Source: Roseburia sp. (GTDB lineage Bacteria; Bacillota; Clostridia; Lachnospirales; Lachnospiraceae). From it: a stretch of 35,289 nucleotides of DNA. Location: contig JAMPIG010000035.1 in NCBI GenBank assembly GCA_023662875.1, positions 1 through 35,289 on the forward strand, read 5' to 3'. The notes beneath the pieces are model-generated. The model was not told the origin of the DNA, did not search any database, and saw only the letters and a program-made list of their open reading frames with translations. A program made the position numbers and the translations under genes. Positions 1-24,297 of the stretch are shown one piece after another (position 1 is the first letter of the stretch; each line of letters begins with the position of its first letter).

Positions 1-54
1 CAATCCTCGAATCCTGTAGTATGATTTTCGTATCAAAATGAAAGGGGCGATGTG

Positions 55-210
55 ATGGTAACAACAATGCGGCTGCCGGATGAATTGCACGAGGATCTGA
101 AAAAGCAGGCGGAGAGAAAGGGCATGACGTTTAATGCGTACCTTCTCAGTATTCTGTGGGAAGTGTACAAAAAGGATGAACTGAATCATAACAGACAAGA
201 AAGGGGTTGA
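55..210 (+). CDS. Small ribbon-helix-helix (Arc/CopG-like) DNA-binding protein
   Basis: This 51-residue ORF starts at ATG 55 after an AAAGGGG Shine-Dalgarno. The sequence MRLPDELHEDLKKQAERKGM followed by a short second helix is the usual ribbon-helix-helix pattern: a beta strand with alternating polar residues, then two amphipathic helices. Such proteins bind operators as dimers and act as small phage or plasmid repressors or toxin-antitoxin regulators. It is the first gene seen and is followed after 4 bases by the next plus-strand gene, so it probably heads the small-gene operon. The ATG overlaps the stop of a five-codon mini-ORF (TGATG), which may be chance. A regulatory role is inferred from fold and position; no toxin partner is recognisable. 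Confidence 0.75.
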   Translation: MVTTMRLPDELHEDLKKQAERKGMTFNAYLLSILWEVYKKDELNHNRQERG

Positions 211-214
211 GAAG

Positions 215-403
215 ATGTCTTTGTTAAAACTGGAAGTGCTGAAAGAGGAAGGTTTGCAGTTTCTGAAGGAAAGCCAGTACGAGGAGTTAGACGTTCTGGC
301 GAAAATGAACGCTAATGCATACATAAAGGGTTTGTACGATGGCCAGAAACTGAAGGAAGCGGAGAACAGGAAGATGCGTCCGATCGAGCGGGCGGCGGTG
401 TAG
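215..403 (+). CDS. Small hypothetical protein ending in RPIERAAV
   Basis: A 62-residue soluble, charged protein with ATG at 215; its ribosome binding site (AAGGGG) lies inside the end of the preceding gene. I do not recognise the family. The N-terminal two thirds look helical (KLEVLKEEGLQFLKE). The last eight residues RPIERAAV and the stop codon are encoded by a DNA repeat that recurs near 2509 and 3094, and the repeat runs into the ribosome binding site of the next gene. It probably forms one operon with the genes on either side. Confidence 0.6.
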   Translation: MSLLKLEVLKEEGLQFLKESQYEELDVLAKMNANAYIKGLYDGQKLKEAENRKMRPIERAAV

Positions 404-408
404 AGGAG
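377..408 (+). repeat. RPIERAAV-stop junction repeat, copy 1
   Basis: The sequence CGTCCGATCGAGCGGGCGGC, then GGTGTAG and AGGAG, recurs with few changes at 2509-2540 and 3094-3127. Here it encodes RPIERAAV and the stop of the upstream gene and ends in the Shine-Dalgarno of the gene at 421. Conservation spans both the coding end and the downstream leader, which suits a recombination junction between small-gene cassettes. Confidence 0.7.
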
Positions 409-420
409 GTGAAGAAAAAA

Positions 421-648
421 ATGTATGTTCCCAGAAAATATTTTGTAAGTCAGGAGGTCTCATCAAAGCTAAAAAGAGATGATATCGGTGCGAAGTTGGA
501 TAAAACCATATTGCACGTGGCCGACTGCATTCTGAAGACAAATGGTAAGAGGGCAGACAATATTGCCGAAATGGCTAAGGCTCTTGCGGAATTGGTACAG
601 GCAAGAGCCTATGCAGAACATCTTATTTGTCTGCAAGAAGAACAGTAA
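421..648 (+). CDS. Small hypothetical protein, MYVPRKYF family, paralogue of the gene at 3136
   Basis: A 75-residue protein. I chose ATG 421 over GTG 409 because the paralogue at 3136 begins with the same MY(V/I)P(R/K)KYF sequence and the AGAGGAGG site lies 11 bases upstream. The two proteins align along most of their length (IGAKLD-TILH-ADCIL and ALAELV-AR are shared), with divergence in the middle. The helical C-terminal half is compatible with a small dimeric protein. Function is unknown. The 3' end overlaps the convergent minus-strand gene by 26 bases. Confidence 0.65.
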   Translation: MYVPRKYFVSQEVSSKLKRDDIGAKLDKTILHVADCILKTNGKRADNIAEMAKALAELVQARAYAEHLICLQEEQ

Positions 649-832
649 AAATTTGAATCAAGGCATGCTGTAGAAATTCATTATTCTTTTTAAGTGATGA
701 TTTTACACGGAGCCAGCTGTAAGGATTTGAGAAGGCAGCCGGATAAAGGTCTTGTTCAATTTGTTTTGCCCAAGCAGAAAATGCGTTTTGAAAAGATGCA
801 TTAACAACCTCTTCGATTTGTGCTTTATCCAT
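623..832 (-). CDS. Small hypothetical protein of the minus-strand cassette set (1)
   Basis: A 69-residue protein starting at ATG 832 (MDKAQIEEVV). The start is fixed by an AAAGGAG site belonging to the shared leader element at 841-876. The protein is helical with several aromatic residues (FSAWAKQIEQDLYP) and no clear membrane segment. Family unknown. It converges on and overlaps the plus gene ending at 648 and has its own sigma-A-like promoter. Expression is therefore expected to be independent of the plus-strand operon. Confidence 0.6.
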   Translation of the reverse strand: MDKAQIEEVVNASFQNAFSAWAKQIEQDLYPAAFSNPYSWLRVKSSLKKNNEFLQHALIQIFTVLLADK

Positions 833-840
833 ATAAAAGT

Positions 841-910
841 CTCCTTTCTTTTGTACTCGGCCTGGCGGGGCCTGTAGGTACAGTATAGAGGAGAGCATCG
901 GAAAAAGCAA
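841..910 (-). promoter_or_regulatory. Minus-strand promoter and conserved leader, copy A
   Basis: Read on the minus strand: -35 TTGCTT (905-910), a 17-bp spacer, -10 TATACT (882-887), then the 36-nt leader at 841-876. The leader contains GGCCCCGCCAGGCC, which can fold as a GGCC/GGCC stem, and ends in AAAGGAG. The leader matches copies B and C almost base for base. It drives the gene at 623-832. The near-5'-end hairpin could be an RNA element or a repressor site. Confidence 0.7.
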
Positions 911-947
911 GCCGCGGATACCAGAGTAGGGAGGAGGTGAAGGAAGC

Positions 948-1148
948 GTGCCTGTGGAGGTCGGATCATATTTTCACAATAAATATTTGGAACTAAAACA
1001 GAATGCCCATACATATGGGGAATTGGAAGAAGCAATAAAAAGAGAGGCCAGTGCAGCGAGTTTTACGGATTCTACATGGGGACATTTCATGTATGCACAG
1101 TTAATGGAAATGCTGCATAAAGAGTGGAACGGCTTACCCATTCAGTAA
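948..1148 (+). CDS. Small hypothetical protein with GTG start
   Basis: A 66-residue protein that begins at GTG 948, eight bases after a strong GGAGGAGGTGA site; no ATG fits that site. The sequence is acidic and helical (YGELEEAIKREASAASF) with a tryptophan- and methionine-rich end. Family not recognised. It lies between the divergent promoter repeat A and the convergent gene 1164-1427 and ends 15 bases from that gene. Confidence 0.6.
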   Translation: MPVEVGSYFHNKYLELKQNAHTYGELEEAIKREASAASFTDSTWGHFMYAQLMEMLHKEWNGLPIQ

Positions 1149-1163
1149 GCCGCCCTTCAAAGA

Positions 1164-1427
1164 TTACAATTCAGTCTCAATGCGGACTAAGGACTTTGTG
1201 GAGTACGCAACGGAATATTCTGCATTTAAATAAAAATAGTCACAATTGCAGAAAGCTTCCATAAGTGATGGAATTAATCCATTGTGTATATGAGAACACA
1301 CTTTAACGGATAAACCCATGGATGCAGTTGAAAAATCGTTATAGGTAGAGGACACGATCGGTATGATAGAATCGTTTTCTTTGACAACTAAGCTTGTTCC
1401 ATCAGCGAATTTGATTAGTGCTTTCAT
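1164..1427 (-). CDS. Small hypothetical protein of the minus-strand cassette set (2)
   Basis: An 87-residue protein starting at ATG 1427, preceded by AAAGGAG from leader copy B. The N-terminus (MKALIKFADGTSLVVKENDSI) looks like paired beta strands, and later residues include CNCDYFYLNAEYS. There is no signal peptide or membrane segment. The fold resembles small phage beta-rich proteins, but I cannot name a family. It has its own promoter at 1434-1504 and converges with the plus gene ending at 1148. Confidence 0.65.
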   Translation of the reverse strand: MKALIKFADGTSLVVKENDSIIPIVSSTYNDFSTASMGLSVKVCSHIHNGLIPSLMEAFCNCDYFYLNAEYSVAYSTKSLVRIETEL

Positions 1428-1433
1428 AAAAAT

Positions 1434-1504
1434 CTCCTTTCTTTTGTACTCGGCCTGGCGGGGCCTGTAAGGGGATTATAGCAGAGGAAGATAGCAAAAC
1501 ACAA
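1434..1504 (-). promoter_or_regulatory. Minus-strand promoter and conserved leader, copy B
   Basis: On the minus strand: -35 TTGTGT (1499-1504), an 18-bp spacer, a perfect -10 TATAAT (1475-1480), then the 36-nt leader (1434-1469) with the GGCC...GGCC inverted repeat and AAAGGAG. The predicted start of transcription falls at the edge of the inverted repeat, so the hairpin would sit at the very 5' end of the mRNA. Confidence 0.75.
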
Positions 1505-1578
1505 TAGCGTAGAACTAAAAAATGGAGAGCGAGGGAAATGACAAGCGTCGGGCACCAGCGTAGAGGGGGTGAGGACAA

Positions 1579-1701
1579 ATAAAAAAGGACGATGACCTGA
1601 TCGCTACAATAATATGCCGTCTCATTGGTTCGATATTGGGCCTAACATTAGTGAAATGGATCCCCAAAATTTTTACTATGTTGTTCAATAAGTATTTCTA
1701 A
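1579..1701 (+). CDS. Possible 40-residue membrane peptide with a non-standard start
   Basis: An open frame encodes KKDDDLIATIICRLIGSILG followed by LTLVKWIPKIFTMLFNKYF, a credible single-pass membrane peptide with a charged N-terminus. A GAGGGGGTGAG leader like those of the neighbouring plus genes lies just upstream, but no ATG, GTG or TTG is in frame; ATA 1579 or CTG 1597 are the only candidates. It may be a gene with a mutated start or a chance open frame. It overlaps the minus-strand candidate at 1648-1818. Confidence 0.25.
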   Translation: MKKDDDLIATIICRLIGSILGLTLVKWIPKIFTMLFNKYF

Positions 1702-1818
1702 TTTATTTAGCAGAATAACATAATCGTCTTTTGATTCGATGGCGTAGTATTCAGCGTTTAATGCTTTGACCTCATCATCTGTCAAGTAGCAGGAAGCAAT
1801 TTTGATGTTTTGGTTCAT
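1648..1818 (-). CDS. Possible 56-residue hypothetical protein
   Basis: The frame encodes a soluble protein with plausible composition (LTDDEVKALNAEYYAIESKD then a leucine-rich helix). The start is ATG 1818 or ATG 1824. Unlike the four other minus-strand genes it has no leader repeat and no clear Shine-Dalgarno; a TATATT sequence lies upstream. Position and strand fit the alternating pattern of the region, but expression signals are weak. Family unknown. Confidence 0.4.
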   Translation of the reverse strand: MNQNIKIASCYLTDDEVKALNAEYYAIESKDDYVILLNKLEILIEQHSKNFGDPFH

Positions 1819-1887
1819 GTACATTACACAGCGGTTAATATAGGAAGTCTGAAATGCGGAGAAAAGCGTAGAAGGGAGATGAGAAAG

Positions 1888-2082
1888 ATGTATGATGCAG
1901 AGAGTAATTCCAAGGTACGAAAATTTGTGGATAGGATAATGGAGCTCATGGAAGCGGAACACATGAGTATTGCAGAAGCGGAAGAGATTCCGGAAAGACT
2001 ATCAAAAAGAGTAGAGGAGAACGGTAAACGGATTGAAAAATCCAAGCCGTTTACCGTATACCATAACGCAGTTATTCACTAA
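1888..2082 (+). CDS. Small helical hypothetical protein
   Basis: A 64-residue protein, MYDAESNSKVRKFVDRIMEL onward, almost entirely helical and charged. ATG 1888 is chosen over ATG 1879 because the GAAGGGAG site gives about ten bases of spacing. The central segment MEAEHMSIAEAEEIPERLSK resembles small phage proteins without known function. Its last 11 bases overlap the convergent minus gene 2072-2236. Confidence 0.55.
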   Translation: MYDAESNSKVRKFVDRIMELMEAEHMSIAEAEEIPERLSKRVEENGKRIEKSKPFTVYHNAVIH

Positions 2083-2236
2083 GATAGTTCAAAAATTCCT
2101 TATAGCCGTGCTCATAATCAGCGAAAAAGCCTTCCGGAGAGATCTGTTCAGAATCTTCTCGTTGAGTGGTTAAATAAAGTTCATAAGCAATGGCTAAGTC
2201 ATGGGCAATTTGTTCTTTGGTAAGTTTTGAAGTCAT
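2072..2236 (-). CDS. Small hypothetical protein of the minus-strand cassette set (3), KLTKEQIAHDLA type
   Basis: A 54-residue protein that begins MTSKLTKEQIAHDLAIAYEL and ends DYEHGYKEFLNYLSE. The start is ATG 2236, eight bases after AAAGGAG from leader copy C; an ATG at 2241 gives only two codons. Short proteins with this KLTKEQIAHDLA beginning and an aromatic C-terminal helix are, from memory, common in Firmicutes phages and mobile elements, with no assigned function. It has its own promoter at 2245-2315 and overlaps the plus gene by 11 bases. Confidence 0.7.
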   Translation of the reverse strand: MTSKLTKEQIAHDLAIAYELYLTTQREDSEQISPEGFFADYEHGYKEFLNYLSE

Positions 2237-2244
2237 TGCATACA

Positions 2245-2315
2245 CTCCTTTCTTCTGTACTCGGCCTGGCGGGGCCTGTAAGGAGAGTATAGCAAAGTAA
2301 GGCGGTAAAGCGCAA
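2245..2315 (-). promoter_or_regulatory. Minus-strand promoter and conserved leader, copy C
   Basis: On the minus strand: -35 TTGCGC (2310-2315), an 18-bp spacer, -10 TATACT (2286-2291), then leader 2245-2280, which differs from copies A and B at one base (TTCTG for TTTTG). It serves the gene at 2072-2236. Confidence 0.75.
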
Positions 2316-2374
2316 TAGCGGGCAGCTGAAAATGTGGAGCGATGCCAGCATAGAGAGGAGGTGAGGACACAGTT

Positions 2375-2476
2375 TTGAAATGGTGGCAGAAACTTATTAT
2401 TGCAGTCGTTTTATTGCTTATGATGGCAATGATTTTATTGGAAATAGCTGCTTACATGAAATTTATGATCTTCATG
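2375..2476 (+). CDS. Possible small membrane peptide (TTG start)
   Basis: TTG 2375 lies about 11 bases after GGAGGTGAGG and opens a 33-residue frame beginning MKWWQKLIIAVVLLLMMAMI. A basic and tryptophan-rich N-terminus followed by about 20 hydrophobic residues is a convincing single transmembrane helix. It lies inside another frame, 2380-2535, that ends in RPIERAAV. Only one of the two may be translated; ribosome spacing and hydrophobic pattern favour this one. Confidence 0.45.
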
Positions 2477-2535
2477 TAAGCAGCTGCGGAAGAATTAAAG
2501 AGACGCCGCGTCCGATCGAGCGGGCGGCAGTATAG
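2380..2535 (+). CDS. Possible 51-residue protein ending in RPIERAAV, overlapping frame
   Basis: ATG 2380 opens a frame beginning MVAETYYCSRFIAYDGNDFI that ends exactly with the RPIERAAV-stop repeat, as the gene at 215-403 does. The Shine-Dalgarno is 16 bases away, which is long. It overlaps the hydrophobic peptide 2375-2476 in a different frame. The in-frame tail argues for it; the spacing and the strong alternative frame argue against. No family recognised. Confidence 0.35.
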   Translation: MVAETYYCSRFIAYDGNDFIGNSCLHEIYDLHVSSCGRIKETPRPIERAAV

Positions 2536-2540
2536 GGGAG
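2509..2540 (+). repeat. RPIERAAV-stop junction repeat, copy 2
   Basis: This copy matches the one at 377 over CGTCCGATCGAGCGGGCGGC and continues AGTATAGGGGAG. It ends the frame 2380-2535 and provides the ribosome binding site for the gene at 2547. Confidence 0.7.
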
Positions 2541-2546
2541 AACAAA

Positions 2547-2684
2547 ATGAAAGAGAGTAATGTAGGCGGGCACATTATTGGCTATATAATCGGTTTTCTG
2601 ATAGGCGAATTTATAGTGTGGAAAATCACAGGAAGCTGCGTATTAGCCACTCTATTGCAAGCGCTGATAGAATACCTGAGATAA
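2547..2684 (+). CDS. Small membrane protein
   Basis: A 45-residue protein with ATG 2547 after AGGGGAGAAC. The segment GGHIIGYIIGFLIGEFIVW is a glycine-spaced transmembrane helix (GxxxG-like pattern), followed by a second hydrophobic stretch (CVLATLLQALIEYL). This suits a small oligomeric membrane peptide. Function unknown. Its last 59 bases are antisense to the end of the minus gene 2626-2976, which also encodes a membrane segment there. Confidence 0.55.
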   Translation: MKESNVGGHIIGYIIGFLIGEFIVWKITGSCVLATLLQALIEYLR

Positions 2685-2976
2685 AGCCGGGGATCCATTT
2701 TGTGAAAAAGAAAATCCGGATATTATCCATCAGGATCCGGTAGCGGTGATATCCTTCGTAGGTCAAAGTAAAATATATCTGTAAAGGATGATCGGCGAGC
2801 TCAAGATATCCTTGATCTGCCAGAAACCTGATAATGTGAGCGGATTCATCAGATTTAAGGGCCACGGTAATGTTGTCTTCGCAGAGGCAGTTATTTTCTT
2901 CGTCAAAGTAAATAAGACTGTCAAGGTTGAAATTTTTCCTTATCAAGTTTAAGAGTTTACGTTCTTGCTTAAGCAT
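2626..2976 (-). CDS. Winged-helix-like protein with a C-terminal membrane anchor, minus-strand cassette set (4)
   Basis: A 116-residue protein starting at ATG 2976 behind GGAG from leader copy D. Residues 1-85 look like a small winged helix (KLLNLIRKNFNLDSL, then HIIRFLADQGYLEL and YFTLTYEGYHRY). The last 25 residues (WIPGFISGILSALAIEWLIR) form one transmembrane helix. This domain order is familiar from Firmicutes phage proteins of unknown role. It is likely membrane bound with the N-terminus in the cytoplasm. It has its own promoter and is convergent with the gene at 2547. Confidence 0.7.
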   Translation of the reverse strand: MLKQERKLLNLIRKNFNLDSLIYFDEENNCLCEDNITVALKSDESAHIIRFLADQGYLELADHPLQIYFTLTYEGYHRYRILMDNIRIFFFTKWIPGFISGILSALAIEWLIRSFL

Positions 2977-2983
2977 GAGATGT

Positions 2984-3056
2984 CTCCTTTGTTTTGTATT
3001 TGGATCTGGCGGGAATTTATAAAGATATTATAGCAGAGCAAGGCGACAAAGCACAA
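2984..3056 (-). promoter_or_regulatory. Minus-strand promoter and diverged leader, copy D
   Basis: On the minus strand: -35 TTGTGC (3051-3056), an 18-bp spacer, a perfect -10 TATAAT (3027-3032). The leader is recognisable (CTCCTTTGTTTTGTA and CTGGCGGG on the plus strand), but the GGCC inverted repeat is lost, so the hairpin is not strictly required for this gene. Confidence 0.65.
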
Positions 3057-3093
3057 TGGCGGACAATGGTGAAATTGAAAGGAAGAGACGCAG

Positions 3094-3127
3094 CGTCCGA
3101 TCGAGCGGGCGGCGGTGTAGAGAGGAG
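3094..3127 (+). repeat. RPIERAAV-stop junction repeat, copy 3 (no upstream gene)
   Basis: The same sequence as at 377 and 2509, followed by the Shine-Dalgarno of the gene at 3136. Here the RPIERAAV frame has a TGA 33 bases upstream and no start codon, so the coding part is a remnant while the leader part is kept. Confidence 0.7.
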
Positions 3128-3135
3128 AAAAAAAT

Positions 3136-3357
3136 ATGTATATTCCCAAGAAATATTTCCCGAAACAGGAAGTTCCCCAAAAGGAAGAAAGTACGGACAT
3201 CGGTGCAAAGCTGGATATAACCATCTTGCACATAGCCGACTGTATCCTGGAGATGGATAAACGGAACGATGCGGATCGTATCCCGGCGCTGGCAAGCGCC
3301 CTGGCGGAGCTGGTAACAGCCCGGACGGAGGCGGATAAAAGAGATATATGGGAGTAA
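3136..3357 (+). CDS. Small hypothetical protein, MYIPKKYF family, paralogue of the gene at 421
   Basis: A 73-residue protein with ATG 3136 after AGAGGAG. It shares the N-terminus MYIPKKYF, the core IGAKLDITILHIADCILEMD and the C-terminal ALAELVTAR with the protein at 421. The codon usage is more GC-rich than that of the first copy, which suggests divergence by descent or separate acquisition rather than a recent duplication. Function unknown; both copies follow the RPIERAAV repeat. Confidence 0.65.
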   Translation: MYIPKKYFPKQEVPQKEESTDIGAKLDITILHIADCILEMDKRNDADRIPALASALAELVTARTEADKRDIWE

Positions 3358-3382
3358 AAGTGTAAGGAAGGGGGCGGAAAAT

Positions 3383-3583
3383 TTGAAAGGAACGGAACGG
3401 GTATCCGTAATGCAGGCGGCGGAGGAGCTTGGCGTGTCGCCGCAGGCGGTGCGGGTACAGATGGAGCGGGGACTTTTGGATATCGGGGTCGTACTGCCGA
3501 GCCTGCAGGGAGACCGAAAACAGTATTGGATCTACCGGGAGAAGCTCAACCGACTTTTAGGCAGGAAAGAGAAAGAAGGCTGA
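3383..3583 (+). CDS. Small helix-turn-helix DNA-binding protein (MerR/excisionase-like)
   Basis: A 66-residue protein that starts at TTG 3383 after GGAAGGGGGCGG. Residues 7-30 (VSVMQAAEELGVSPQAVRVQ) are a clear helix-turn-helix of the MerR/Xis-like class, followed by a wing-like segment (QYWIYREKLNRLL). Such small proteins act as phage regulators or excisionases. It opens the GC-rich early block. Its target is unknown; the absence of a nearby integrase makes an excisionase role less likely. Confidence 0.65.
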   Translation: MKGTERVSVMQAAEELGVSPQAVRVQMERGLLDIGVVLPSLQGDRKQYWIYREKLNRLLGRKEKEG

Positions 3584-3653
3584 GACGCTTATTATTTTTT
3601 TGCCTTTTTTCAGGCGATTGTATCAAAAAACAGCACAAGAAAGGAGACAAGCT

Positions 3654-4220
3654 ATGATCGAGAAGGAAGAGATGATGTTGGAGGTAGAGGAGATCCGGCA
3701 GCACCCGGATCGAATCTGGAGCAGCCAGGACAGGGAGCTGGCGGCCGCCGTCCTGGAGGAGATCCGGGAGGACTACCCGGAGGCGGTACTCTGCGGGTAT
3801 CTGCGGAATTACTGGATTCCCTTAAACGCTTCCCAGCGGGAGGAGCTGCGGGAGATGCTGGAAAGCGTATGGGAGCGGATGCTGGACAACCTGGCGGAGG
3901 TGGAGGAGTCCCTGCGGGACCTGCACGTAACGGAGAAGGAGAAGCTGGCGGCCTGGCTGGATCGGAAGATGAAACAGGTGAAGGCGGCCTATGACGGGAG
4001 GATTTACCGGGAGGGCATCGAGATAGGGTTCAAATCCCGGAACCGCGATGTATACCAGCTCCATGGACTGGAGCAGGCGGCGGGAATCCTGGGGCTGGAG
4101 GTAGAGAAGAGGGAAGACGTGGCCGGGGACGTCCGGAAGAGCTTCCGCTACCGGGGCAGGGAATTCTACGAGTGGATTTACTGTCCGGAGGTTCCGGAGG
4201 GGAAGGAGGCGGAAGCATGA
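3654..4220 (+). CDS. Hypothetical early protein
   Basis: A 188-residue charged, helical protein. ATG 3654 is chosen because AAAGGAG lies 7-8 bases upstream; an in-frame TTG at 3600 has no such site. The C-terminal part (YRGREFYEWIYCPEVPEGKE) contains a compact aromatic cluster. I do not recognise the family. It precedes a small membrane protein with an ATGA overlap, so the two are probably translationally coupled. Confidence 0.65.
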   Translation: MIEKEEMMLEVEEIRQHPDRIWSSQDRELAAAVLEEIREDYPEAVLCGYLRNYWIPLNASQREELREMLESVWERMLDNLAEVEESLRDLHVTEKEKLAAWLDRKMKQVKAAYDGRIYREGIEIGFKSRNRDVYQLHGLEQAAGILGLEVEKREDVAGDVRKSFRYRGREFYEWIYCPEVPEGKEAEA

Positions 4221-4432
4221 AACGGTGGGGTAGGGGCGACATCTTCGGCGGGATTGCATTCCTGGTGCTTCTGGTGTTCCTGCCCGGGGCGGTGGAGGGA
4301 ATGCTGGAGGGGGAGCAGGTGGTAGAAGCGGGAGGACTCCTCCTGGTGGCGGTTTTGGCAGCGGTCTTTTCCGTCTGCATCCTTTTGTCCCTGCGGGAGG
4401 AAGGCCGGGAAGCAGACCGGGAAGGGAGGTAA
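4217..4432 (+). CDS. Small two-helix membrane protein
   Basis: A 71-residue protein starting at ATG 4217, overlapping the preceding stop (ATGA), with GGAAGGAGGCGG upstream. There are two hydrophobic segments, IFGGIAFLVLLVFLPGAV and GGLLLVAVLAAVFSVCILLS, separated by a short acidic loop, then a charged tail. The topology resembles small phage inner-membrane proteins. Function unknown. Confidence 0.6.
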   Translation: MKRWGRGDIFGGIAFLVLLVFLPGAVEGMLEGEQVVEAGGLLLVAVLAAVFSVCILLSLREEGREADREGR

Positions 4433-4435
4433 GGG

Positions 4436-4930
4436 ATGGAAAGCGAAAAGACCAGAACCGCGGAGAGGGAAGCAGAAGGAGGGAACCGGAGCAGCCGGGA
4501 GCCCGAAAGGACGGCAGGCGGCAGGATCCCGGAAGCCCAGCTCCCGGGGTGGCTTCGGGAGATCGTGGAGTGTCTGGAGCGGGATCCGGACATGCCCTAC
4601 CTGATCCCGCGGGAAGACCGGGCGCTGGAGGCTTACGCCAGAATGAAGCTGCTGTATCCCGGGACAAAGCTGGCGGTGAAGCGGGGAATGCGGTATCTGA
4701 CGGTCAGCGACGCGGCGCTGCGGCATCTTTTCGAGCAGCTGGAGCGGGAGAGGGGGCAGTTTGCGGAGGTCGTAGCGGCCTATGACCGGGAGATCGCCGG
4801 GATCCGGGGGCTGATGGGCCGGGAGCAGGGGACAGGGATCTATTGGGCCCCGGACAGCCTGTGCCGTCCGCCTGCCACAGGGGAGGAGCGGCGGAAATAC
4901 CGGGAGGCCCTGGAAGGAAAAAGCGCATAA
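4436..4930 (+). CDS. Hypothetical early protein
   Basis: A 164-residue protein with ATG 4436 after GGGAGG. The first 35 residues are low-complexity and charged. The remainder (PGWLREIVECLERDPDMPYL onward) is helical with a pattern often seen in phage replication-module proteins of unknown function. It is the last gene before the initiator and its upstream hairpins. Family not recognised. Confidence 0.55.
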   Translation: MESEKTRTAEREAEGGNRSSREPERTAGGRIPEAQLPGWLREIVECLERDPDMPYLIPREDRALEAYARMKLLYPGTKLAVKRGMRYLTVSDAALRHLFEQLERERGQFAEVVAAYDREIAGIRGLMGREQGTGIYWAPDSLCRPPATGEERRKYREALEGKSA

Positions 4931-4935
4931 AAAGA

Positions 4936-4970
4936 GGCGGCATTGCAAGATGCCGCCAGCCCGTCCGGGC
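4936..4970. other. Tandem GC-rich hairpins upstream of the initiator gene
   Basis: GGCGGCAT (4936-4943) pairs perfectly with ATGCCGCC (4950-4957) around a 6-base loop, and GCCCGTCCGGGC (4959-4970) forms a second small hairpin. No T-run follows, so a terminator is unlikely. Position 107 bases before an HUH initiator gene makes this a candidate double-strand origin or operator; that is inference. Confidence 0.45.
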
Positions 4971-5076
4971 GTACTGAAAAACCTCAAAACCATCGTACAC
5001 CAGGACGGGAAAAAAGTCAAGAAAAACGCGGATTTTGGGCGCGTTTGCGGCTTGTTAAAAAAATTAAAGTTAGGGT

Positions 5077-6030
5077 GTGGAGAGGATGGCATACGGGAAA
5101 AATACATACCGGTATCCCAACGCGATCGAGGTGGAGGAATACCACAGCGCAAGGTACGGGGCGCCGGGACAGAAGAGGGAGAAGAAGGAGAAGCCGACCC
5201 CGGAGCAGATGCAGCGGGTGAACCAGAGGAACAAGGAAAAATTATGCCGCAGGAGGATGCGGCAGTACTTCCGGGAGAGGGATCTGTTCGTGACCCTGAC
5301 CTATGCGCCGAAAAACCGGCCCCCGGACATGGCTGCGGCGAAGAAGCACTTCCGGGAGTTCTGCAGCCTGCTCCGGAAGAAGTACAAAAAGGCGGGAATC
5401 CCCTTCCGGTGGATCCGGAACATCGAGAACGGGACGAAAAACGCCTGGCACATCCATGTGCTGCTGAAGCGGATCCCGGACGCGGATCTCCTGATTGCGG
5501 AGGCCTGGCCCTACGGGACGGTCGACCTGATCCCCTGCTACAAGAAGGGGGAGTTCCGGGAGCTGGCAGCGTACCTGACGAAGGGCCCGGCGACGAGCCC
5601 GCGGCTGAAGGAGGCCAGCTACTCCACATCGCGGAACATGCCCCTGCGGGAGCCGGAGCGGAAAGTCATCAAACGGTGGGAGACCTTCCGGGAGAACATC
5701 CGGATCCCGAAGGGGTTCTACCTGGAGAAGGAGTCCTACCACGAGGGGACAAACCCGGTGACCGGGTTCCCCTACCGGGAGTACACCTTATTGCGGATCC
5801 AGAAACGGGAGGAGAAGGAGGAGAAGGGTGAAAAGGGTAGACGTATACATCGCCGCCAGCATCCGGGGTCCCGGAAAGGGGACGGGAAGGGTGGCCTACG
5901 TGATGAAGTGCCGCAGGGCGGACGGAAGGGAGCACGAAAGCAGGGCGGAGGTCGCGGAGTACGACGAGGCGACGGAAAGCCGCCTGGTCCTGTACGGGAT
6001 CCGGGAGGCCCTCCAGCGGCTGAGGTATAG
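5077..6030 (+). CDS. HUH-type rolling-circle replication initiator (ORF2/G2P-like)
   Basis: A 317-residue protein starting at GTG 5077; ATG 5086 is an alternative too close to its GGAGAGG site. Motif 1 is FVTLTYA (71-77), the HUH metal-binding motif is WHIHVLL (H125, H127), and the candidate nicking tyrosine is Y166 in LAAYLTKG. Proteins with these motifs nick one DNA strand at an origin and stay bound through the tyrosine. The normal protein appears to end near residue 250 (YREYTLLRIQ). The remaining 68 residues are an arginine- and glycine-rich extension read out of frame across the next gene, probably after loss of a stop codon. The family is usual in small plasmids and filamentous phages and less expected in a tailed phage. 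Confidence 0.8.
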   Translation: MERMAYGKNTYRYPNAIEVEEYHSARYGAPGQKREKKEKPTPEQMQRVNQRNKEKLCRRRMRQYFRERDLFVTLTYAPKNRPPDMAAAKKHFREFCSLLRKKYKKAGIPFRWIRNIENGTKNAWHIHVLLKRIPDADLLIAEAWPYGTVDLIPCYKKGEFRELAAYLTKGPATSPRLKEASYSTSRNMPLREPERKVIKRWETFRENIRIPKGFYLEKESYHEGTNPVTGFPYREYTLLRIQKREEKEEKGEKGRRIHRRQHPGSRKGDGKGGLRDEVPQGGRKGARKQGGGRGVRRGDGKPPGPVRDPGGPPAAEV

Positions 6031-6301
6031 CTGCGAGGTCGTGGTACATACGGAGTGCGCCTATGTGGCCGGGGCCATCGCCCAGGGCTGGCCGGAGGCC
6101 TGGGAGCGGGGGCATTGGAAGAACCGCAAAGGGGAAGCGGTCAAGGACAGCGTCCTCTGGAGCCAGATCCTGCAGGAGGTAACGGAGCAGGGGCACCAGC
6201 TGAAGGCGGAGGCGGGGAAGCACGAGTACGCCAACTGGCTGCGGTACAAGATGCACCTGGCCCCGGGACACAAGGAGGTCTTCTGGCAGATTCCGGACTG
6301 A
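5828..6301 (+). CDS. RNase H-fold protein
   Basis: A 157-residue protein with GTG 5828 after GGAGGAGAAGG. The order of motifs matches a phage branch of RNase H: VDVYIAASIRGPGKGTG at the first strand, EATESRLVLYGIREAL for the helix with a catalytic Glu, HTECAYVAGAI in place of the usual aspartate strand, and HEYANWLRYKMH at the end. It would remove RNA from RNA-DNA hybrids during replication, but the TDGS position of canonical enzymes reads IAAS (residues 8-11), so the first acidic ligand seems missing and activity is uncertain. It overlaps the initiator frame by 203 bases. Confidence 0.75.
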   Translation: MKRVDVYIAASIRGPGKGTGRVAYVMKCRRADGREHESRAEVAEYDEATESRLVLYGIREALQRLRYSCEVVVHTECAYVAGAIAQGWPEAWERGHWKNRKGEAVKDSVLWSQILQEVTEQGHQLKAEAGKHEYANWLRYKMHLAPGHKEVFWQIPD

Positions 6302-6327
6302 GTGCAAACCAGGACACTTTTTGGAAA
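6301..6327 (+). repeat. 27-bp direct repeat, copy 1
   Basis: AGTGCAA, three variable bases, AGGACACTTTTT and GAAA recur at 6384-6410 with 23 of 27 positions identical. It starts at the last base of the RNase H stop codon. Together with the second copy it brackets a short stretch with a CCTTCC/GGAAGG inverted repeat. Confidence 0.6.
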
Positions 6328-6383
6328 AATCAAAAATACCCTCTTTTCGGGGGAACCTTCCTCGTGGGGAAGGGATTTTGAAA

Positions 6384-6410
6384 AGTGCAAGAGAGGACAC
6401 TTTTTTGAAA
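6384..6410 (+). repeat. 27-bp direct repeat, copy 2
   Basis: The second copy of the repeat at 6301. The 6302-6521 gap (220 bases) is otherwise free of supported genes and could hold protein-binding sites or a small RNA. No promoter with good -35 and -10 boxes was identified. Confidence 0.6.
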
Positions 6411-6521
6411 TCCGACCTGCCGGGAGAGGGGCAGGAGGAACCGGCGGCAGGCTTAAAGGGCCGGAGCCGGGGAAAAGACAGAGAACAAAAGGCAGCAGGG
6501 CTGCCGGGAAAGGAGCGATTT

Positions 6522-7022
6522 ATGTTTGACCGATTCGGGGAATTTGACAGTGCGGAGGAGATCAACGCGACGGCGGCAGGCCTGCGGAAGGAGGGGGACC
6601 GGGAAAGCCTGGAGGTACTGGCAAAGGAAAACGGGATCGACGGCGATCTCGTGGAGGCCTTCTGGGAAGGGGATCTTTTGTACCTGTGCGACGACATGAG
6701 CGCCGCCATCGGGAAGCTGGACGTAGAGGCGCAGGAAATCAAATGCGCGGAGATTCTGGGGGATTGGGTGGAATACCTGAAGGCCCAGTGCCTGGAGAGG
6801 CCGGAGGTGGCGGCGGCCGTCCGCAGGAAGGGGAAGAGCCTGGCCGGGTGCGTGGCAGCGCTGCTGCACTGGTCCTTCCGGCACCAGACGCCGGTAGACG
6901 AAAAAATCCTGAAAGCCGCTAACGTAAAAGCGGGGCGGTGTACCTTAGGGATCCCGGGGATGGCCACCGCGAAGAAGCTGATGACAGAGTATTACCTGGG
7001 GAAAGGGGGCGCGGGGAAATGA
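6522..7022 (+). CDS. Conserved hypothetical protein upstream of PcfJ-like protein
   Basis: A 166-residue protein. ATG 6522 follows AAAGGAG with good spacing and begins MFDRFGEFDSAEEINATAAG. I recognise the overall pattern (GEFDSAEEIN at the start, KSLAGC and LGIPGMATAKKL-EYYLG at the end) as one recurring in Lachnospiraceae mobile elements, without a known function. It is all-helical and soluble. It ends in an ATGA overlap with the PcfJ-like gene, so the two are coupled. The position corresponds to PcfK in PcfK-PcfJ pairs, although the sequence is different. Confidence 0.65.
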   Translation: MFDRFGEFDSAEEINATAAGLRKEGDRESLEVLAKENGIDGDLVEAFWEGDLLYLCDDMSAAIGKLDVEAQEIKCAEILGDWVEYLKAQCLERPEVAAAVRRKGKSLAGCVAALLHWSFRHQTPVDEKILKAANVKAGRCTLGIPGMATAKKLMTEYYLGKGGAGK

Positions 7023-9181
7023 AGCGGAAGGCAATCGAAAAAATTCCCTACCTGACCCTGCCCCGGGTGGTGCGGAAGGGGAAACCGGACTATGTGGCGG
7101 TAACGGCGCTCCGGGAGATCGGCGGGGAGGAGCACTTCCTTCTGGAGGTCTACCGGAACCGGAAGGAGGGCCGGAAGGCTCCGGTAGTCCGGATTGCCCT
7201 GACGGAGAAGGATTTCGGGAATTACTTCCCGGGAAGCGGGGACTGGAGCCGGGAGAAGATCGAAGGCAGCATCTGGTCAGGGGACGGCCCGATCTGGCGG
7301 AAAGAGGATGGGCGGAAGAGCCGGGAGGAGCTGGAGAAGGAGAATGTCCTGTACGCCAAGGAGGATCTGGGGCGGATCCAGACCTTTGCGGGCGGCGACG
7401 TCTGCAGCTGGCGCGACCGGCAGTGGTGGGATTACCTCAAAGGGAAACAGGAGGAAATCCTGACGGGGGAAAGAGTAAAGCGGGCAGCCAGAAAATGGGA
7501 GAAGCGGCGGCAGGCCCTGGCGGAGCGGATGGAGCAAACGGAGGAGCTGCCCAAACAGCGGATCCTGGAGTATGCGGAGCGGGTGGTGTTTGGGGAAAGG
7601 CATTTCCTGTATTACAAGAAGCGGGGCTGCTGGGCGGAGGTGGCCTGCAGTAAGTGCGGGGGCGTAACGGAGGCGCGGTGGAAGGAAGGGATTTCCTACG
7701 AATCTCAGCTCCAGCGCCGGATCCCGAATCCCCGGGAAGGGGAGAGAGGCGTCTGCCCCCTCTGCGGGGCCGCCGGGAGGTATAAATGCCAGGGGAAAGC
7801 CAGGGCAGTCCACGAAAAAAGCGTTTTCCTCTGGCTGGGGCAGAAATACGGGGAGCAGGGGATGGTGTTCCGTTATCTCCAGGTGGAGAAATTCTGGCAG
7901 CTGGAGGAATACTGCGAGGAGAAGGAGGTTCGGATGCACGGCGCTTCCGAGGAGCTTTCCGGGATCGAGATCGCCCGGGTCTACTTCCAGCCGGGGGAAA
8001 AGACGCAGACCGACTACCACAAGCACAACGGCTGGTCAGGGGAGGACTTCTGGGACGACTGCAACCTGTCCGGGCTCACCAGCATCCAGCTTTGTCCGGG
8101 ACTTGTGCTGCCGGAGACCTATGAGGCGATGGAGGGGACGATGTTCCAGTACAGCGCCCTGCGGGAATACGCCCGGGCAGCAGGCGAGGTGAACCCGAAG
8201 GCTTACCTGGAGCGATACCAGGAGTTCCCACAGCTGGAGATGCTGGCCAAGCTGGGTCTGACGGAGATAACGGAAGAGCTGGTTCGGCATCGGTACAACG
8301 ACGGGATCATCGCCGATGAGACCGCGAAAAGCCCGGACAAATTTCTGGGGATCCGGAAGGAGCGGGTCGGGCTGCTGCGGCGGGAGAAGGGGAGCCGGGA
8401 GCTTTTGAAGGTACTGAAGATGGAAAAGCGGATGGGGGCGGCCTGGACGGAGGAACAGATCCGGTGTCTGATGGAAACAGGGCTGCAGCGGGGCCAGCTG
8501 GAAACTGCCCTGCAGTGGATGGGCCTGCAGCAGCTGTTAAACCGGGTCCGGAAGTACGCCGGGTGCGAGTATGGAGCGCCGTGCGGGAGGGCAATGGAGG
8601 CAATCCATGACACCGCGGGACTTTACCTGGATTACCTGCAGATGCGGCAGGCCTTAGGCTATGACATGACCAATACCGTGTACCTGCAGCCGCGGGATCT
8701 GCGGGTGGCCCATGACCGGATGGCGGAGGAGCAGAACACAGTGACGGACGTGGAGAGGAGGGATCGGCGGCTGCAGGAGGTTTCCCAAAAATACCCGGGA
8801 ATCCGGAAAAATTACCGGAGGCTGCGGAAGCGGTTCTATTACGCCGATGAGGATTTCCTGATCCGGCCCGCCCGGTCGGCGGAGGAGATCGTAGCGGAGG
8901 GAAGGATCCTGCACCACTGTGTCGGCGGGGACAGTTACCTGGAAAAGCATGACGATGGGGAGAGCTACATCCTGATGCTGCGGACAAAGCAGGAACCGGA
9001 AATGCCTTATATCACCGTGGAAATCCGGGCGGACAGCCTGCAGATCGTCCAGTGGTACGGGGCGTATGACCGGAAGCCGGACGAGAAGCGGATGGAGAAG
9101 TGGCTCAAGGAGTACCGGGAAGGGCTGGAGAGGAAGGAAAGGGGCGCGGAGGAAAGGGCGGAGATCCGGATTACCGCTTAA
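7019..9181 (+). CDS. PcfJ-like protein
   Basis: A 720-residue protein with ATG 7019 overlapping the upstream stop. The C-terminal signature ILHHCVGGDSYLEKH (about residues 630-644), followed by SYILMLRTK and ITVEI, is that of the PcfJ family, first named from conjugative plasmid pCF10. Two CxxC pairs at about 209-212 (CSKCGG) and 246-249 (CPLCG) form a likely zinc ribbon. PcfJ proteins occur widely on phages, plasmids and integrative elements; their biochemical role is not settled. It probably acts with the small partner encoded just upstream. Confidence 0.85.
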   Translation: MKRKAIEKIPYLTLPRVVRKGKPDYVAVTALREIGGEEHFLLEVYRNRKEGRKAPVVRIALTEKDFGNYFPGSGDWSREKIEGSIWSGDGPIWRKEDGRKSREELEKENVLYAKEDLGRIQTFAGGDVCSWRDRQWWDYLKGKQEEILTGERVKRAARKWEKRRQALAERMEQTEELPKQRILEYAERVVFGERHFLYYKKRGCWAEVACSKCGGVTEARWKEGISYESQLQRRIPNPREGERGVCPLCGAAGRYKCQGKARAVHEKSVFLWLGQKYGEQGMVFRYLQVEKFWQLEEYCEEKEVRMHGASEELSGIEIARVYFQPGEKTQTDYHKHNGWSGEDFWDDCNLSGLTSIQLCPGLVLPETYEAMEGTMFQYSALREYARAAGEVNPKAYLERYQEFPQLEMLAKLGLTEITEELVRHRYNDGIIADETAKSPDKFLGIRKERVGLLRREKGSRELLKVLKMEKRMGAAWTEEQIRCLMETGLQRGQLETALQWMGLQQLLNRVRKYAGCEYGAPCGRAMEAIHDTAGLYLDYLQMRQALGYDMTNTVYLQPRDLRVAHDRMAEEQNTVTDVERRDRRLQEVSQKYPGIRKNYRRLRKRFYYADEDFLIRPARSAEEIVAEGRILHHCVGGDSYLEKHDDGESYILMLRTKQEPEMPYITVEIRADSLQIVQWYGAYDRKPDEKRMEKWLKEYREGLERKERGAEERAEIRITA

Positions 9182-23997: not shown

Positions 23998-24297
23998 TTA
24001 TAATTTTTGGACGCGCTCCAGGGCCTTTTCCATTTCCCGGACAGCCTTATCGAGGCTAAGACTGTAAATCCGGTCTACCTCCGGGCTGAAATCGGTACGG
24101 GGAATCCCTTTTTCATCCATTACTTGGAGAACTTCGTCGTGGAGGCGGGAGAGTTTTTCGCGGAGGGGCTTGTTTTTCCGGCGGATTTGAACGGCCTCCC
24201 TTACCAGCAAGACCGGAATGGAAAGGATACAAAAAGTACCAATCCAAGCGAAACCTACACCGTCAGGAATCATCATTAAAAAAGTATTGTTTAACAT
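23998..24297 (-). CDS. Minus-strand moron: small N-terminally anchored membrane protein
   Basis: A 99-residue protein from ATG 24297 after AAAGGAGGG. A hydrophobic segment at about 12-33 (GFAWIGTFCILSIPVLLV) is followed by basic residues and a helical cytoplasmic domain (LREKLSRLHDEVLQVMDEKG; later KAVREMEKALERVQKL), so the N-terminus is outside. It has its own sigma-A promoter and intrinsic terminator and interrupts the plus-strand tail operon. This is the definition of a moron gene; likely expressed in a lysogen and possibly acting on the envelope or on superinfecting phage. No family recognised. Confidence 0.75.
   Translation of the reverse strand: MLNNTFLMMIPDGVGFAWIGTFCILSIPVLLVREAVQIRRKNKPLREKLSRLHDEVLQVMDEKGIPRTDFSPEVDRIYSLSLDKAVREMEKALERVQKL

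Follow-up and report, generated by a model that had tools for sequence, protein, structure and literature searches.

The window analysed here is the whole contig JAMPIG010000035.1 of a Roseburia sp. (35,289 nt, from a genome of 151 contigs and 3.72 Mb). Between positions 421 and 3357 small genes alternate between the strands, and four of the minus-strand genes (623, 1164, 2072 and 2626, named here by their first coordinate) are each led by the same element, which consists of a promoter and a hairpin at the predicted 5' end of the mRNA. We consider it likely that these genes represent a moron-type accessory system of temperate phages of the Lachnospiraceae and other Clostridia, which is expressed in lysogeny and in which every gene is locked to an early lytic gene on the opposite strand. 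The window carries a tailed phage, as terminase, portal, head protease and major head protein match PHROGs families, and so do a tape measure protein, an integrase, a replication initiator and an amidase/endolysin. The integrase at 12923 matches general phage integrase families. A DNA comparison of window positions 1-8000 with GenBank phages gave no match.

The alignment of the four upstream regions reveals a common module composed of a sigma-A-like promoter, 5 nt, a hairpin and a strong Shine-Dalgarno (SD) sequence. Its order is a -35-like TTG, a -10 box TATAMT, 5 nt, TACA-stem-loop-stem-GAGTA, a stretch rich in A that contains GGAG, and finally the start codon. The promoter consensus is TTG-17/18-TATAMT; in three of the four window copies, judged by eye, the TTG lies one base further up, which gives an 18-nt spacer. 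The hairpin reads UAC-A-GGC..GCC-GA-GUA in the mRNA (UACAGGC..GCCGAGUA in the longer written form). Three copies were also recovered by a repeat search as an 88-nt family at 841, 1434 and 2245, and a covariance model found four matches in the window at E values up to 1, three of them at about 1e-11 and the decayed copy at 2984-3032 with 0.09. The initial annotation had assigned a promoter of their own to all minus genes except 1648, and the alignment bears this out; the 5' hairpin, which is the most distinctive feature, had gone unnoticed in that annotation. Like morons, the units have on sequence grounds a promoter independent of the lytic operons.

The element is not restricted to this contig. 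Covariance model R1, built from 18 sequences, matched 28 of 138 genomes of the genus, 16 of 392 genomes of the order (the genome of the window, 12 more from the same family and 3 from one other family) and 5 of 398 genomes of the phylum, the own genome included; these genome sets overlap in part. A degenerate pattern with about 20 fixed bases, for which by our own estimate with equal base use about one match in 257 Gb is expected by chance, was found in at least 115 stretches of genome contigs and at least 120 of viral contigs. Among the matches listed, 80 genome titles comprise 68 from Lachnospiraceae genera or other Clostridia, 2 given as Bacillota only and 10 as bacterium only. The model identifies the element in the named phages Montmirail (two copies), phiRg507T2_2, ANDSL2_ph1 and AC844P2, while RG-TP1 and phiRg507T2_3 show BLAST similarity only. 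The collected stretches that carry the element or related genes are labelled as loci (L004, L080 and so on). For the counts below 371 aligned matches (104, 150 of 157, and 117) were pooled to 336 distinct copies, 132 from genome contigs, 111 from viral contigs, 89 from other genomes and 4 from the window; 119 further matches (from 35 genome and 40 viral stretches and 5 GenBank loci) lie outside these counts.

Some of the observed conservation is a consequence of the search. In the pattern scan the -10 box, the spacing, GGC/GCC and GAGTA were preset, and the -10 box and the SD form part of model R1; the conservation of the -10, SD and spacing letters is therefore biased. That holds for the 5-nt distance between -10 and hairpin in 309 of 315 parsed copies, which is largely fixed by model and pattern, and for the 332 of 341 hairpins of a regular-expression scan, which is biased by design; the nine others have the -10 box at 6 nt (six) or 4 nt (one), lie at a contig end (one) or lack a -10 box (one). 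Independent of these letters are the -35 region, the covariation of the inner stem and the tests on orientation and linkage. The -35 letters T, T and G are present in 95, 89 and 82% of the 336 copies and, being part of neither model nor pattern, are independent evidence of a promoter. In addition, an exact 18-mer of the hairpin alone retrieved nine viral contigs, all nine with a -10 box exactly 5 nt before the hairpin and with an SD-like stretch and an open reading frame (ORF) behind it; five of them lead one and the same gene and four lead unrelated genes. The element family is probably wider than R1 detects, because the homologs of gene 1164 in L349 and L350 are led by a weaker variant that R1 missed (a -10 box followed by TATCGGCA-CTGCAA-TGTCGA). 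These variant hairpins (L349:2937-2995 and L350:2937-2995) have the same CTGCAA/CTGCCA loop and lack TACAGG and GAGTA. A long extra arm in the hairpin with retained flanking motif was seen at L226:7523-7583 and L078:8023-8085, for L226 from the match length only.

The hairpin covaries as a structured RNA does. In an alignment of 102 distinct rows 97.1% of the cells are paired, and 64 cells have both sides changed compared to a mean of 14.7 after shuffling; when the structure is slid by 1-3 columns pairing is at most 38%. Within the ungapped 16-nt class, which comprises 105 distinct hairpins, the pair at the inner end of the stem is CG in 32, AT in 26, GC in 26 and TA in 12 cases, so that it is canonical in 96%, against 39% in shuffled sequences. 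At the two ends of the loop (first and last base), 70 of the 105 hairpins have C.A and 24 have U.G, which are isosteric wobbles. The swap occurs even between the related led genes of L086 and L090 (GGCCA-CTGCCA-TGGCC versus GGCTG-TTGCCG-CAGCC), which are also related to the Abi_alpha protein of L080. The stem furthermore contains an asymmetric 1x2 internal loop, A against GA. A conserved structure with compensatory changes, as expected of a cis-acting structured RNA leader, is thus present. The Rfam search of the window and nine loci gave no match at gathering level except a tRNA, and a permissive search of window positions 600-3400 gave four weak matches, all under the gathering score. The hairpin appears to represent an RNA leader class without Rfam entry.

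The palindrome could instead be an operator to which a repressor binds as duplex DNA. Repressors often bind directly downstream of the -10 box, where the palindrome lies, a point that concerns position only. The half-sites of an operator would hardly vary freely with compensation, up to all four Watson-Crick pairs at one position, and the compensatory stems, the asymmetric internal loop and the co-variation of C.A and U.G at the loop together make a duplex operator very unlikely.

Complete ORFs follow the element in 308 of the 336 copies, with a median of 73 aa. They start 5-13 nt past the model end in 300 of the 315 copies with any ORF, a figure to which our ORF rule contributes, as it sought starts near there; ORFs were called by this rule (start codon plus SD) and not by a gene finder. 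The 306 led proteins of at least 40 aa fall into 136 blastp clusters including 74 singletons, hence most led genes are unrelated in sequence. Cluster representatives match Abi_alpha, DUF4145, DUF2513, KTSC, DUF2188, DUF1883, YozE-like and zinc-ribbon families. At E < 1e-10 PADLOC assigned 4 of 135 representatives to PDC-S47 (the Abi_alpha protein of L080), PDC-S16, PD-T7-4 (the DUF4145 protein of L124) and a TIR effector (L249). Some of the cargo may serve antiphage defence. Within the window, family searches of the proteins agree with the initial annotation that no product belongs to a family of known function; in other phages the same slot carries Abi_alpha, DUF4145/PD-T7-4-like and TIR-like genes. 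The family of gene 1164, compared with solved structures, gave nothing meaningful (best E 0.28). One genome (G478) holds the same led 107-aa gene twice, in L106 and L107, and the L106 partner is by eye related to one in L172.

The units are oriented against their surroundings almost without exception. Neighbouring strong-SD ORFs are mostly antisense to the led gene in 249 of 253 cases, and where a locus has more than one copy all copies lie on one strand (72 of 72). The best repressor-like match, with a few repressors from the collected loci as queries, is found on the element strand in 101 of 102 loci. The GenBank phages Montmirail, phiRg507T2_2 and ANDSL2_ph1 have the same layout with respect to antisense and repressor strand. 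The most extended array, L172, contains seven led genes within 7.4 kb which alternate with plus ORFs, except for one interval with two plus ORFs, of which one spans a run of N. Only 7 of 277 led genes have a strong-SD ORF of the same direction close by, which corresponds to a monocistronic layout. A type II toxin-antitoxin operon, characterized by a co-directional pair, was rejected on the same count, as the partners are convergent.

The 277 copies are those left of the 336 once truncated ORFs, ORFs below 40 aa, copies close to the end of a contig and locus L190 had been removed. In 229 of them a convergent strong-SD ORF ends between -120 and +150 nt from the stop of the led gene, compared to 95 of 259 for other strong-SD ORFs of 50-130 aa in the same loci. 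The two overlap in 188 of the 229, and the median offset is an 11-nt overlap. Relatedness of the convergent partners follows the identity of the led genes: partners are related in 8/9 pairs at 95% or more, 9/9 at 80-95%, 26/29 at 60-80%, 32/69 at 40-60% and 24/101 below 40%, with a background of 88/25,889 for unrelated led genes. The corresponding numbers for the divergent neighbours are 0/8, 0/6, 0/13, 1/50 and 0/62 with a background of 81/16,697. Because at 60-80% identity the partners are related and the divergent neighbours are not, the inherited unit is the convergent pair.

The pairs of the window follow this pattern. The strand alternation and the overlaps of 26 nt (421-648/623-832), 11 nt (1888-2082/2072-2236) and 59 nt (2547-2684/2626-2976) noted in the initial annotation are reproduced exactly by the ORF coordinates; 948-1148 and 1164-1427 do not overlap and leave a gap of 15 nt. 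The pair 623/421 recurs in L224 with 57% and 43% identity and an overlap of 11 nt. Gene 2626 and its partner recur in L317 with 53% each (for the partner over 30 aa), where even the 59-nt overlap is identical. The pair 1164/948 recurs in L080 and L083, with led genes at about 42% and partners at 30-32% identity (E 5e-10 and 3e-8); these are the only two matches of 948 among 245 partners from other loci, and both face homologs of gene 1164. For 2072/1888 the matches are weak: 2072 resembles the led frame L355:4662-4826 of the Blautia phage Montmirail (39%, E 8e-4), and 1888 the Montmirail partner (E 0.001, a single comparison) and one partner of L087 (E 0.001), the led gene of which is similar in type by eye. 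Relatives of all four window led genes are again preceded by an element. That the frames are real proteins, the point at which the initial annotation could have failed, is thus supported for three pairs by led relatives with a related partner and for 2072/1888 weakly. The 54-aa Montmirail frame (ON453898.1) is absent from the GenBank annotation.

Ordinary antisense ORF noise in an early region would explain why a generic promoter scan of positions 1-5100 missed the minus promoters and found 4 sites where 6.2 are expected by chance. Element, proteins and pairs are conserved across genera, and we give this explanation practically no weight; chance antisense ORFs are ruled out by the homologous led pairs.

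Next to the inherited pair, the sequences also delimit what is exchanged. Related genes that lie in different contexts were compared in 34 pairs (pairs with far upstream regions more than 90% identical were dropped), and their upstream identity drops almost to the background level 25-60 nt above the -10 box. Between L004 and L007 identity switches at the hairpin itself. The spacer repeated in L172 reaches from the plus-gene SD to that of the minus gene, about 95 nt, and is longer than the hairpin. From these comparisons the edge of the exchanged unit is placed in the promoter/hairpin spacer. The initial annotation had suggested insertion of promoter-gene cassettes, bounded by repeats and directed against the early operon; this stands in outline, with the convergent pair in place of a minus gene and its promoter as the unit.

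A hairpin at an exchange boundary raises the question whether it acts as a recombination site, a folded single-stranded DNA of the attC kind, so that the arrays would result from cassette capture and the adjacent promoter would be secondary. The switch point in L004/L007, the tandem arrangement of many unrelated small genes as in L172 and the asymmetric internal loop would all fit such a site. A capture site does not explain the -10 box at one spacing and the SD-like stretch after the hairpin in all nine contigs fetched by the hairpin alone, nor a repeat in L172 that exceeds the hairpin, and the swap of the loop-closing C.A and U.G suits RNA. By eye, only phage-type integrases are present on the locus maps, some kb away (L102, L123). 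We regard cassette capture at the hairpin as unlikely. An integron cassette array in the strict sense was rejected, as the hairpin lies between -10 box and SD and not at the 3' end of the gene like attC.

According to the accessory system which we favour, each minus gene would be a single-gene unit with a sigma-A-like promoter, a transcript starting at the hairpin, a strong SD and a small ORF. Its end would often be marked by a stable hairpin or a terminator that falls within the last part of the early gene opposite, and the unit would lie in reverse orientation among the early lytic genes. In the lysogen the early operon would be silenced by the repressor and the minus units would be on; upon induction the early operon would read across them as antisense and turn them off. 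What phages trade would be the tail-to-tail pair, a lysogenic gene together with its own early gene, exchanged probably by homologous recombination at the common divergent spacer (SD to SD) that holds promoter and hairpin. The hairpin itself most likely acts as RNA, either as a 5'-terminal mRNA-stabilising or as a protein-binding leader that would provide the same expression for all cargo.

The 3' ends of the units are in line with such a model. Stable hairpins peak 20-40 nt past the stop of the led gene on its own strand, with a mean of -7.4 compared to about -4 kcal/mol, and at the peak 25% of the folds are below -12 kcal/mol compared to 0-6% away from it (150 of 227 junctions were folded). 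Strict terminators follow 46 of 228 units versus 7, 3 and 2 of 228 in controls. Since the hairpin is located about 30 nt past the stop and terminators are found in a minority, minus transcripts would meet the plus gene chiefly at its 3' end. Early transcription would be antisense to the whole minus gene, and the antisense relation thus looks asymmetric. The mutual control by antisense overlap envisaged in the initial annotation is weakened accordingly in favour of early transcription that would switch the minus gene off.

The linkage of the pairs invites a functional reading, in which the lysogenic gene acts as an effector, defensive or toxic, which the early partner neutralises for the phage's own lytic cycle. 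Partner families are matched to cargo families over large distances, as with the two partners that match 948. A DUF4145-type pair recurs in phages of Clostridia and Streptococcus (by eye except where Pfam was run). The cargo includes Abi_alpha, DUF4145/PD-T7-4 and TIR-like proteins, and one partner, in L307, is similar to Tad2, a Thoeris anti-defence family. That partner does not stand opposite the TIR-like gene of L249, and the overlap of the tails could by itself hold pairs together. We regard such a functional couple as a possible, albeit rather unlikely, explanation. It is doubtful, too, whether the pairs are interchangeable two-faced cassettes, composed of a lysogen-protecting gene and a disarming early gene, that make up an undescribed arsenal common to prophages of Lachnospiraceae and other Clostridia, with the shared 5' hairpin tuning them all, read by a trans-acting factor and marking the exchange boundary. 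Partners from several clusters (L113:7666, L253:5117, L293:822, L300:4610 and L237:2083) share by eye a small beta-type pattern, I.IDG..L..V..I.F.HK.G..P.L.I..D, and are perhaps one superfamily.

Several observations weigh against the proposed accessory system, and the first two also against a functional couple. L174 carries a homolog of gene 1164 with an unrelated partner, and partners of the 421 family stand opposite led genes of several kinds. For 948, a closer match (39%) is found in a further early ORF of L080, which does not face a 1164 homolog. Linkage is low below 40% identity, and at any distance it may result from physical overlap alone rather than from shared function. A strict terminator is found in a minority of the units, the single copy in L106 sits by eye in a structural-like operon, and most of the cargo has no known function, with few clear scores in the defence library. 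Finally, the hairpin is not needed for the arrangement, because a DUF4145-type gene with a matched small gene is present in the Streptococcus phage PH15 (L358 ORF6/ORF7) behind a plain promoter with no hairpin, and Anaerostipes AC844P2 contains a DUF4145-type gene and partner without hairpin at that gene. By eye, DUF4145-type genes facing a matched small gene occur in several host families (L358 ORF6/ORF7, L350:1479-2298, L357 00024/00025). Partners of the 421 type (..ALAELV.AR..) are found opposite L174:7493, L156:1241, L112:7006, L119:2490 and L290:1673, small led genes which are alike by eye only.

Features of the small-gene array in the window. Positions are those of the contig; minus-strand features are read on the complementary strand.
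Position	Strand	Feature	Basis
421..648	+	early gene, convergent partner of 623-832; paralog of 3136-3357	ORF call, sequence comparison
578..610	-	hairpin with 10-bp stem, 3' of the gene 623 stop, within the 421-648 coding sequence	read from sequence; no match in the strict terminator search
623..832	-	element-led gene, 69 aa	intact element in front of the L224 homolog (57%)
841..887	-	element of gene 623: -10 TATACT, 5 nt, hairpin TACA-GGCC-CCGCCA-GGCC-GAGTA, SD AAAGGAG	upstream alignment, covariance model
905..910	-	-35 TTGCTT of the gene 623 element	
948..1148	+	early gene, GTG start, convergent partner of 1164-1427	matches to L083 and L080 partners
1127..1155	-	terminator-like hairpin 3' of gene 1164, within 948-1148	
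1164..1427	-	element-led gene, 87 aa, phrog_6996 (function not known)	PHROGs match, sequence comparison
1434..1480	-	element of gene 1164	repeat family, upstream alignment, covariance model
1648..1818	-	possible orphan frame without element, doubtful gene	ORF call
1888..2082	+	early gene, convergent partner of 2072-2236	weak matches: Montmirail, L087
2021..2057	-	15-bp inverted repeat 3' of gene 2072, within 1888-2082	
2072..2236	-	element-led gene, 54 aa; by its sequence pattern of the AHDLA-type family	in one cluster with the led genes of L179, L195, L302
2245..2291	-	element of gene 2072	repeat family, upstream alignment, covariance model
2547..2684	+	early gene, convergent partner of 2626-2976	related L317 partner
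2626..2976	-	element-led gene, 116 aa, with a C-terminal segment that is hydrophobic by eye	homologs in L201, L215, L317 (53%)
2984..3032	-	gene 2626 element, decayed: broken stem, -10 and loop retained	covariance model, E 0.09
3136..3357	+	paralog of 421-648 without minus partner (58% over 67 aa)	sequence comparison

The minus frame 1648 has no element upstream and no homolog among the loci searched. A pair 1579(+)/1648(-) is doubtful because of the missing homolog and because the plus partner at 1579 would need an ATA start. Three plus genes are preceded by a repeat (366-415, 2498-2547 and 3083-3132) which encodes a tail RPIERAAV and its stop, with an SD behind them, and has the look of a leader for translational coupling that survives as a relic. 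Far from the array, a lone 99-aa frame without element lies just 5' of the tape-measure gene (23998-24297, minus strand), a possible second kind of moron.

In practical terms tiny unrelated genes that share a promoter and a hairpin offer a way to find many candidate phage-defence genes. The single handle TATAMT-N5-TACAGGC..GCCGAGTA picks hundreds of small accessory genes of temperate phages from raw genomes, and does so in a dominant group of gut bacteria, where few of these genes belong to known defence families. It also names the facing gene of each led gene, so that pairs can be tested for defence, counter-defence and self-immunity. If the two-faced cassettes were real, the hairpin would allow hundreds of new defence/anti-defence pairs to be searched for. 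Annotation gains as well, as the led Montmirail frame illustrates.

A moron is a known kind of gene. The shared promoter and covarying 5' hairpin for unrelated cargo, with the pair as unit, was not found in the literature searched, which was judged from titles and the beginnings of abstracts; subscription papers and preprints were outside its scope. Integron gene cassettes are likewise unrelated small genes in arrays with a structured repeat between them, which is located at the 3' end of the gene. Here the repeat belongs to promoter and 5' untranslated region, each unit has two facing genes and the host is a phage. The start-associated sequences of mycobacteriophages (SAS/ESAS) are short repeated elements with an SD before many unrelated phage genes, whereas the present element comprises a promoter and a covarying hairpin and is common to phages of many genera. 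BstA is a prophage defence which spares its own phage by means of a self-immunity DNA site; here that role could at most fall to a protein partner.

Two further systems are comparable. In the P. aeruginosa phage Fc02 a gene on the repressor strand overlaps a gene of the lytic operon on the opposite strand (olg1/gene 10), and gene 10 and one of the two overlapped repressor-strand ORFs are reported to have exclusion activity (PMC9936078). As far as the abstract goes, Fc02 represents a single locus with another kind of overlap and mentions no shared leader or array (PMC9936078). The moron STMMW_20121 of prophage ST64B is antisense to lytic genes, has its own promoter and is expressed in lysogeny (PMC7067206). 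It resembles the units described here in its own promoter and in its antisense position to lytic genes. Different from such morons, one promoter-hairpin module serves 136 unrelated gene clusters here, and the exchanged unit is the convergent pair.

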